The translations under genes were made by a program, and so were the position numbers. A stretch of DNA of 40,129 nucleotides from Candidatus Woesearchaeota archaeon (lineage in GTDB: Archaea; Nanobdellota; Nanobdellia; Woesearchaeales; UBA119): the NCBI GenBank assembly GCA_030156615.1, contig JASGME010000010.1:1-40129 (forward strand), read 5' to 3'. The notes under the pieces were generated by a model. It was not told where the DNA came from and did no database searches. It saw only the letters and a program-made list of their open reading frames with translations. The stretch's first letter is position 1. Each line of letters starts with the position of its first letter. Of this stretch, positions 29,778 to 38,421 are shown piece by piece.

Positions 29778-30332
29778 ATGGCTGATTCATCATTAGAATC
29801 AAATGATTATGAAGAGAAATGCATCTTCTGTAATATTGCAAAAGGCAATATAAAAGCCAAGAAAATCTATTCAGATGATAAAATTACAGCCTTTTTGGAC
29901 ATAAATCCTGCAAATCCGGGTCATGTTTTAATAATTCCAAATAAGCATGTTTTAATGTTTCCACTATTAGATGATTCTCTCGTTGGTTATATCTTTGCAA
30001 TGGCAAAGAATATCTCGCTTATTATGTTAAAAGTTTTAGACTCAAAAGGAAGCACAATTCTCGTTGGAAACGGAGCAATTGCTGGCCAAAAAGCTCCTCA
30101 TGCACTTCTTCATCTAATCCCAAGGTATCCTGACGATGATATTGGGCTAGTCCCTCCAATAAAGCAAATTGATGATAAAAAAATCAAAGAATTAAGATCC
30201 GCCTTAACAGAAGCTATGAAGAAGTTTTTAGATGAGAAAAATATCATAGAGAAAAAAGAAGAGCAGAATGAAGAAGAAACAGATGATGAATTTGATGCTG
30301 ACAGGGTTTCAAAATTATTTTTAGGGAAGTAA
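29778..30332 (+). CDS. HIT-domain protein 1
   Basis: CIFCNIAKGNIKAKKIYSDDKITAFLDINPANPGHVLIIPNKHV; C-terminal HALLHLIPR in place of HxHxHxxPR. Confidence 0.9.
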   Translation: MADSSLESNDYEEKCIFCNIAKGNIKAKKIYSDDKITAFLDINPANPGHVLIIPNKHVLMFPLLDDSLVGYIFAMAKNISLIMLKVLDSKGSTILVGNGAIAGQKAPHALLHLIPRYPDDDIGLVPPIKQIDDKKIKELRSALTEAMKKFLDEKNIIEKKEEQNEEETDDEFDADRVSKLFLGK

Positions 30333-30333
30333 A

Positions 30334-30861
30334 ATGGTTGAATGCGAACTTTGTAAACTGATGCAGAACGATGAAAATCTTGTATACAAAGACGATAAGG
30401 TAGGAGTAATGTTTAACATGGAACCTTCTGCTTTAGGTGAAATGATAGTTGTCCCGTTGAAGCATGAGGTTTTGTTCGAGAATCTAACAGATGAACTAGC
30501 TGCTCATATGGCAGTTATAGCAAATAAGGTTTCTATGGCTCAGGTCGCAGCTCTTCATTGTGAGGGCACGAACCTATTAGTTCAGAGCGGAGAGCAGGCA
30601 GGACAAAGACATGCTCATACTTTTATCAGAGTAATTCCAAGATTTGATGGAGACGGAATTGATTTAAGTTGGAATCCAAAAAAACTGAATGATGAAGAAA
30701 TGTCGGTTATTGAGATTAAGTTGAGGGATGCCTGCCAAAAAATCTTTTTCAAGGCCGAGAAAAAGGCTCCTCAGGAGTTTAAAGTTAGTGAAGAGCATGC
30801 AGATTCAAAAGAATCTGAAAAATATAAATATATGTTAGAACAGTTAAACAGACTTCCTTAA
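30334..30861 (+). CDS. HIT-domain protein 2 (tandem paralogue)
   Basis: CELCKLMQNDENLVYKDDKVGVMFNMEPSALGEMIVVPLKHEV; HAHTFIRVIPR at the HIT motif. Confidence 0.85.
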   Translation: MVECELCKLMQNDENLVYKDDKVGVMFNMEPSALGEMIVVPLKHEVLFENLTDELAAHMAVIANKVSMAQVAALHCEGTNLLVQSGEQAGQRHAHTFIRVIPRFDGDGIDLSWNPKKLNDEEMSVIEIKLRDACQKIFFKAEKKAPQEFKVSEEHADSKESEKYKYMLEQLNRLP

Positions 30862-30871
30862 AATCGAATAA

Positions 30872-30882
30872 TTTATAATATA
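30872..30882 (+). promoter_or_regulatory. TATA-like box upstream of first hairpin unit, locus 1
   Basis: TTTATAATATA about 25-35 nt upstream of the hairpin start at 30907. Confidence 0.4.
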
Positions 30883-30906
30883 TCCTCTTTATCACATTTT
30901 TATATT

Positions 30907-30956
30907 GTCGAGGTCGCATACACAAACTTCCCTTCGGTCGTTTGGTCGCGACCTCT
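30907..30956 (+). repeat. tRNA-Ser-associated 50-nt hairpin unit, locus 1 copy a
   Basis: GTCGAGGTCGCATACACAAACTTCCCTTCGGTCGTTTGGTCGCGACCTCT; GAGGTCGC/GCGACCTC and CAAAC/GTTTG inverted repeats. Confidence 0.9.
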
Positions 30957-31011
30957 GGATAAGCAAAACTCATAACTATCTATGTTGTTTCGATTAGAAT
31001 TGCTTGAAACT

Positions 31012-31061
31012 GCCGAGGTCGCATACACAAACTTCCCTTCGGTCGTTTGGTCGCGACCTCT
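31012..31061 (+). repeat. tRNA-Ser-associated 50-nt hairpin unit, locus 1 copy b
   Basis: GCCGAGGTCGCATACACAAACTTCCCTTCGGTCGTTTGGTCGCGACCTCT, exactly 105 bp after copy a. Confidence 0.92.
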
Positions 31062-31116
31062 AGATAAACAGAAGATATTAATATTTACAATATTTTGTTT
31101 TGTTCAGCTAAATATT

Positions 31117-31199
31117 GCCGAGGTCGCATAACTTGGTATTGCGCAGGCCTTGAGAGCCTGTCCCTTTCGGGATTCTGGGTTCAAATCCCAGCCTCGGCG
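31117..31199 (+). tRNA. tRNA-Ser (anticodon UGA)
   Basis: Acceptor GCCGAGG/CCTCGGC, anticodon stem CAGGC/GCCTG with loop CTTGAGA, long variable arm TCCC/GGGA, T arm CTGGG TTCAAAT CCCAG, discriminator G. Confidence 0.93.
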
Positions 31200-38019: not shown

Positions 38020-38095
38020 AGTTGTTTTTAAATCATTGCTGCTTTAAGAAGATTTTTAATGTTTATTCGTGATTTTTACTTCTTCAAAGAATAAT

Positions 38096-38106
38096 TTATT
38101 ATATAA
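38096..38106 (+). promoter_or_regulatory. TATA-like box upstream of first hairpin unit, locus 2
   Basis: AT-box TTTATTATATAAC, centre about 27 nt upstream of the hairpin start at 38129. Confidence 0.4.
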
Positions 38107-38128: not shown

Positions 38129-38178
38129 GCCGAGGTCGCATACACAAACTTCCCTTCGGTCGTTTGGTCGCGACCTCT
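38129..38178 (+). repeat. tRNA-Ser-associated 50-nt hairpin unit, locus 2 copy c
   Basis: Identical 50-nt unit to copy b. Confidence 0.92.
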
Positions 38179-38233
38179 AGATAAACAGAAGATATTAATA
38201 TTCACAACATTTTGTTTTGTTCAGTTAAATATT

Positions 38234-38283
38234 GTCTGGGTCGCATACACAAACTTCCCTTCGGTCGTTTGGTCGCGACCTCT
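38234..38283 (+). repeat. tRNA-Ser-associated 50-nt hairpin unit, locus 2 copy d
   Basis: GTCTGGGTCGCATACAC... diverged only in the first 7 nt; rest identical; exactly 105 bp after copy c. Confidence 0.9.
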
Positions 38284-38338
38284 AGATAAGCAAAACTCAT
38301 AAATATCTATGTTGTTTCGATTAGAATTGCTTGAAACT

Positions 38339-38421
38339 GCCGAGGTCGCATAACTTGGTATTGCGCAGGCCTGGAGAGCCTGTCCCTTTTGGGATTCTGG
38401 GTTCAAATCCCAGCCTCGGCG
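38339..38421 (+). tRNA. tRNA-Ser (anticodon GGA)
   Basis: Same fold as 31117-31199 with two differences: T34 to G34 and one base in the variable-arm loop. Confidence 0.93.

Follow-up and report, generated by a model that had tools for sequence, protein, structure and literature searches.

The attC sites of integrons have conserved R boxes (RYYYAAC / GTTRRRY) that do not copy the neighbouring gene, and cassettes lie between the sites. REP elements and REPINs (TnpA-REP, RAYT) are short imperfect hairpins with an internal irregularity, and are plausibly recognised in single-stranded form (PMC8266576, PMC3116915). Single-strand transposons of the IS200/IS605 family carry hairpins with unpaired bases that are recognised by structure, and they insert after a short fixed motif (PMC6006769). 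Some integrative elements use tRNA genes as targets and restore the gene, with a partial and a complete gene copy flanking the insertion (PMC9897764). The hairpin units described here are apparently an undescribed family of tiny insertions, and an open-access literature search found no paper joining Woesearchaeota with tRNA-Ser or mobile hairpins.

The window (the whole stretch of DNA that was analysed, 40,129 nt) contains four 105-bp units, two located 5' of tRNA-Ser(UGA) and two 5' of tRNA-Ser(GGA), and the two tRNA-Ser loci are 7.2 kb apart. The initial annotation had described the first array, with unit starts at 30907 and 31012, the tRNA gene at 31117 and a spacing of exactly 105 bp, together with a TATA-like box and one change from the tRNA 5' end in the first copy. 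All of this was confirmed: the box, TTTATAATATAT, is at 30872-30883, 24-35 nt 5' of the first unit, and the single base change in unit 1 is C2 to T. The array is real but not unique, as a second one of equal period starts at 38129 and 38234 and leads into tRNA-Ser(GGA) at 38339. The 50-nt unit at 38129 is identical to the 50-nt unit at 31012, and 0 chance matches to the unit pattern are expected in the window. In the features below, E is the core hairpin, X1 and X2 are the outer and inner copies of the gene end, and X' can pair with either of them; followed inward to the gene, these parts always come in the order X1-CA-E-X'-filler-X2-CA-gene.

30872..30883, + strand: TATA-like promoter box 5' of the first array (sequence; aligned with other unit/tRNA upstream regions)
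30907..30918, + strand: X1 of unit 1, which repeats tRNA-Ser positions 1-12 on the outer side, with one change
30919..30947, + strand: core hairpin E of unit 1, TACACAAAC..GTTTGGTC (fold; covariance models R1/R2)
30948..30955, + strand: X' (anti-X) of unit 1, the complement of X1 and of the tRNA 5' end (fold; covariation)
30956..31011, + strand: spacer type A, first array
31012..31060, + strand: unit 2 of the first array (X 31012-31023, E 31024-31052, X' 31053-31060)
31061..31116, + strand: spacer type B, first array
31117..31199, + strand: intact tRNA-Ser(UGA), with X2 as its first 12 nt
38095..38106, + strand: TATA-like promoter box 5' of the second array
38129..38177, + strand: unit 1 of the second array
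38178..38233, + strand: spacer type B, second array
38234..38282, + strand: unit 2 of the second array, X1 with three changes
38283..38338, + strand: spacer type A, second array
38339..38421, + strand: tRNA-Ser(GGA), intact; X2 of the second array

The spacers follow in the order A-B in the first array and B-A in the second, which suggests exchange between the two loci. They do not align with the region upstream of the first unit (z about 0), and hence the full duplication length cannot be shown in the window. An Rfam search of the window at gathering scores returned tRNA only, and a permissive search gave a best match of E 0.71. Two HIT-domain protein genes (window 29778-30861) lie directly upstream of the first array and show no sign of belonging to it. 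Elsewhere in the window's own genome (G000), a third array consists of one unit 5' of tRNA-Ser(CGA), of which the 5' arm GCCGACGTCGCA equals its own tRNA and the 3' arm is altered in step, while tRNA-Ser(GCU) is without a unit; according to model and pattern searches, units in this genome are located solely at tRNA-Ser sites. The congener G001 has units at its tRNA-Ser GCU and CGA genes. Four G001 contigs (C52, C64, C71 and C75) terminate at tRNA-Ser genes or close to them, as would fit longer arrays that an assembler could not pass. Missing RNase P was considered as a cause of the odd tRNA leaders and was ruled out, because G000 has an RNase P RNA.

Each unit folds as GAGGTCGC..AT..AC.CAAAC-loop-GTTTG.GT.C.GCGACCTC, and the computed fold of the 50-nt unit (-22.8 kcal/mol, z about -5 to -6) agrees with the pairing drawn in the initial annotation. 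The core conserved across sites is CA followed by T-N-C-W-CA..stem..TG-G-N'-C. In an alignment of 57 units, 93% of pair cells pair and double changes occur in 11 of 15 pairs, with 120 double-change cells as against 33 after shuffling and no more than 27 in the slid controls; the stems thus keep their complementarity in homologues, the loss of which the initial annotation had named as the evidence against an RNA function. The 3' arm covaries with the 5' arm, which copies the adjacent tRNA. The copy had been put at 14 nt; positions 1-12 are indeed copied, whereas from position 13 onward the sequence belongs to the hairpin. Position 13 of the units is T even where the tRNA has C, GCAT being kept where the tRNA has GCAC. 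Immediately above the AT/C internal loop the pair can be A-T, C-G or G-C, a variation independent of the tRNA, in which position 14 remains A; the insert therefore begins after the CA of the target. Among the tRNA units, X1 equals X2 at 838 of 873 positions (96%) and X' pairs at about 82%, being complementary to both copies.

Two covariance models were used, the first built from seven units and the second (R2) from 57. The first model detected units in 31 of 288 genomes of the order (Woesearchaeota), and the second in 70 of 353 genomes and in 38 of 180 good genomes; the value of 70/353 (about 20%) is a lower bound, as about 16 candidates per genome were scored. The genomes are metagenome-assembled, and some are incomplete. 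In a phylum-wide sample, matches were confined to this order except for one weak match (G523, E 0.007), and a search of viral contigs and of plasmid and phage records for the unit gave no match. Units are nearly always directly 5' of tRNA-Ser, and sometimes of tRNA-Thr or tRNA-Arg. A tRNA with a matching acceptor strand follows 110 of 125 unit matches, 81 of the 110 being exact over 11 nt; mismatches to the unit's own tRNA amount to 33 of 1,155 positions, compared with a mean of 314 when the tRNAs are shuffled (42 distinct tRNA 11-mers). All four Ser anticodon classes occur among the unit-bearing tRNAs, for which ARAGORN labels of intron-bearing genes are unreliable.

Other irregularities were observed at tRNA-Ser genes of the order. 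Downstream of many of them, a second copy of the tRNA 3' end is located within 40-110 nt (L073 1672-1800, L065, L021, L099, L013, L019, L076, L078 and L084), often with a hairpin complementary to the T-arm, and at L084 the repeat extends past the tRNA end into the flank; these duplicated 3' ends possibly reflect a related insertion at the 3' side. Intron-like insertions are present in the D-loop, anticodon loop and T-loop of tRNA-Ser genes (L065, L067, L068, L093, L024, L181 and L205). At L057 (1569-1640), a truncated tRNA-Ser copy, from the 5' half to the variable arm, is located between a unit and a full, intron-bearing tRNA-Ser.

Units were not restricted to tRNA-Ser. A generic-arm model, with the core alone fixed and the arms represented by random complementary sequence, was run over 40 genomes; it recovered the known tRNA-Ser units as well as tRNA-Arg (G048) and several protein-gene loci (G155, G170, G315). 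The tRNA-Thr sites in G086, G116 and G278 were found with R2, and those in G086 and G278 were also matched by the generic-arm model. A leader RNA specific to tRNA-Ser was rejected on these findings. The same core, with arms that match each target, occurs at the genes for AlaRS, RNase Z, Rrp41, dph5, L34e, PAN and others, the names being a reading of translated ORFs rather than curated annotation. The core pattern had 13 matches in G155 and 4 in G210, compared with 0 for the reversed control; the genome-wide scatter once envisaged as a sign of a generic repeat is thus found in one genus and not in the window's own genome. In 14 of the 17 matches the arms, which were absent from the query, are complementary at 6-9 of 9 positions, and two of the remaining three are the L255 pair, with cross-paired arms. 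Of these 14, 12 are at protein-gene ends, one is at tRNA-Ser and one is intergenic. The core has the sense orientation where the unit is at a 5' end (AlaRS, RNase Z, RluA-like, L267) and the antisense orientation where it is at a 3' end (L34e, dph5 of G155 and G210, ferredoxin, AI-2E, SMC, Lrp, RlmN), the latter weakening the earlier proposals of an RNase P mimic or a leader RNA.

The direct repeats X1/X2 comprise 83 nt at the AI-2E gene, 52/52 nt at L255, 40 nt at AlaRS and 18/18 at L34e, and the duplicated length ranges from 11 to 83 nt. In two cases the duplication reaches the non-coding flank (L003, z 4.3; L276, z 6.2). At protein-gene sites, X1 and X2 are 47-191 bp apart. L255 (G155 contig C3) has two tandem cores with crosswise complementary arms, A-E-B'..B-E-A'..A, in which B is the same gene end recoded. 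At L280 (G155 contig C75), the dph5 3' end is present three times in a row, neighbours differing by synonymous codons and the first and third being alike. On codon reading by hand, L255 and the G155 dph5 gene both show a-b-a alternation of two gene-end versions along the array.

Across three species of one genus (G084, G155 and G210), a unit at a given site is mostly present in one genome, the site being empty and unduplicated in the other or others examined; at about 50-65% protein identity, these congeners are too distant for their intergenic flanks to be aligned. This holds for the RNase Z, RluA-like, RlmN, AI-2E, SMC, Lrp and ferredoxin gene ends. AlaRS has a unit in G155 and a variant one in G084, and dph5 has units in G155 and G210, each of the two genes being empty in the remaining genome of the three. 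Likewise, tRNA-Ser(GCU) is occupied in G001 and empty in G000. Such sporadic occupation favours insertion over a conserved regulatory role. Because each neighbouring gene end is present twice and most sites are empty in at least one congener, what had been read as a mimic of the tRNA 5' end is a target duplication, and the unit resembles an insertion that regenerates the gene end.

X1 often encodes the terminal peptide of the gene, including its own stop codon. At dph5, 8 of 11 codons in G210 and 14 of 19 in G155 differ between X1 and X2, all of them synonymously, and in G155 three Ser codons are all switched between AGY and TCN; pooled over the two genomes, there are 22 synonymous and 0 nonsynonymous codon differences. 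All protein sites examined at codon level (those with the CATACTCA..TGGTCG core and a few model matches) gave 36 synonymous differences, of which dph5 contributes 22, and 15 nonsynonymous ones, of which SMC and RlmN account for 13; with dph5 left out, the ratio becomes 14 to 15. In a drifting copy, about one quarter of changes are expected to be synonymous. The coding capacity kept at protein sites, together with the 96% identity of X1 to X2 at tRNA genes against X' pairing of about 82%, suggests that X1 is, or recently was, in use, whether via precise excision, via RNA removal or via gene ends moved with the element between species.

On balance, we lean towards each unit being a DNA-level insertion after CA(T) near a gene end, with a duplication that restores the gene. 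The element would consist of the E hairpin of roughly 25-40 nt (T-N-C-W-CA..stem..TG-G-N'-C) followed by X', 8-16 nt complementary to the target. It would enter after CA, usually CAT, inside the gene and close to its end, and the stretch from the insertion point outward past the gene end would be doubled, X1 being the outer, displaced copy and X2 the inner copy that restores the gene. The evidence for this consists of the anatomy, the covariation, the X1/X2 duplication, the presence or absence of units among congeners, and the coding capacity of X1 at several protein genes. Beyond these, the units presumably move as DNA; E, with its bulged W and AT/C internal loop, may be a structure recognised by an enzyme; X' could be made by fold-back copying of X as the unit forms; and precise loss of the unit, by which the gene goes back to X1, would be frequent enough to keep X1 functional. 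The tandem 105-bp arrays and the A/B swap in the window may represent repeated insertion, or exchange between two tRNA-Ser loci. One option listed in the initial annotation, a small mobile element for which the tRNA-Ser 5' end is both the target and the part rebuilt, comes close to this reading, except that tRNA-Ser is just the commonest of several targets. It is probably the commonest because a GCAT in its D-arm lies 12-13 nt from the gene end and because insertion leaves the tRNA restored; the tRNA-Thr and tRNA-Arg matches also carry GCAT.

Several observations stand against the insertion reading. Nearly all protein-gene copies are at gene ends, which selection explains only if intergenic insertions are rare; there is one clear intergenic case, L266, and L258 fits poorly. 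Moreover, simple one-way insertion does not account for the saturated synonymous X1/X2 difference seen at dph5 while the peptide is unchanged. No transposase or integrase linked to the units and no autonomous copy was seen, and we know of no transposition mechanism that fits long variable duplications together with an inverted target copy. We tentatively propose, as an extension that is plausible although less than probable, a reversible and self-effacing insertion, in which the hairpin enters essential genes, provides them with a second copy of the end and is lost again, through precise excision from DNA or removal from RNA, often enough for purifying selection to act on both ends. The dph5 ends, almost fully recoded for the same peptide and with Ser AGY/TCN switches, would suggest selection for the two copies to differ.

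The same properties of X1, namely its tRNA sequence kept better than the pairing of X' and its coding capacity with own stop codons, could also be expected if E-X'-filler-X2 were an intron removed from tRNA and mRNA by an unidentified or relaxed splicing, with X1 the real terminal exon and X2 serving in unspliced transcripts; many tRNA-Ser genes of the order do have other introns. We regard this as unlikely, since the fold is not a bulge-helix-bulge (the 5' strand carries most of both unpaired features), X1 competes with X2 for pairing with X', and units at gene 3' ends have the conserved core in antisense to the transcript. A similarly low probability, placed next, is given to the units being scars, or else minimal attachment sites, left by larger elements that integrate at conserved gene ends and bring a replacement end with them, E then being a folded, attC-like recombination site. 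Gene ends are re-created, L255 alternates two gene-end versions with cross-paired arms as after cassette-like insertion at E, and the bulge and unpaired spacer recall attC imperfections (PMC8946536); however, no larger element is seen between X1 and X2, the arms have no shared consensus beyond CA(T), and the phage, plasmid and viral searches gave no match. Also doubtful is a cis-regulatory leader in which X' pairs with either the decoy X1 or the gene's X2 and so switches folding of the tRNA-Ser (or of a start codon) on and off. The complementarity of X' to both copies fits such a switch, and the units, to judge from short spacers of other families that lack a TATA-like box, may often be co-transcribed, yet their sporadic presence (the lower bound of about 20% of genomes), their antisense occurrence at gene 3' ends and the duplication of sequence outside the gene all speak against it. 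A plain tandem duplication of the region upstream of tRNA-Ser, in which a hairpin happens to be present by chance, would fit the 105-bp period and the identical neighbouring units in some arrays (L085, L067), but is very improbable and is refuted by a core that is conserved and covarying across about 35 families and present at non-tRNA sites such as protein genes.

If the insertion reading is true, the units are minimal mobile elements that draw their arms from the target and interrupt essential genes without killing them, and the family has spread through a large order of uncultured archaea. The tRNA-Ser fragments, duplicated gene ends and assembly breaks met in annotating these genomes would then have a common source.

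As compared with known systems, the family would be set apart by failed feature tests for the families considered, and not by a demonstrated mechanism. Like REP elements and REPINs, the units are short irregular hairpins dispersed near genes, but they have no GTAG-type tag, the foot being CA-T in aligned units, they are not high-copy, their arms copy the neighbouring gene, and the gene end is duplicated. A PF01797 search for Y1 (HUH) transposases found none in G000, G155, G210, G151 and G170, and mobilisation of the Y1/REP type was rejected because no such enzyme was found in G000, G155 and G210; of 20 genomes with units about half were positive, as were a fifth of 20 without units, some genomes being incomplete. 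With IS200/IS605 transposons the units share hairpins with unpaired bases placed after a short fixed motif. That family, to our knowledge, makes no target duplication, whereas the units have X1/X2 repeats of up to 83 nt and empty congener sites with one X, and a search for the transposase found none in half of the unit-bearing genomes tested. The attC sites also have a stem, an unpaired central spacer, an extrahelical base and a variable terminal stem, but the arms of the units follow the target gene, and no ORF-bearing cassettes were seen between units. Archaeal bulge-helix-bulge introns occur in the same tRNA-Ser genes, and removal of a unit would likewise leave an intact gene; the unit fold, inspected by eye, is without that motif, on which ground such an intron was rejected, and its orientation relative to transcription varies. 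Finally, a unit resembles the tRNA-targeting integrative elements in being flanked by a partial and a complete gene copy; those elements are of kb size and encode an integrase, whereas a unit consists of tens of bp with a covarying hairpin and is also found at the 5' and 3' ends of protein genes.
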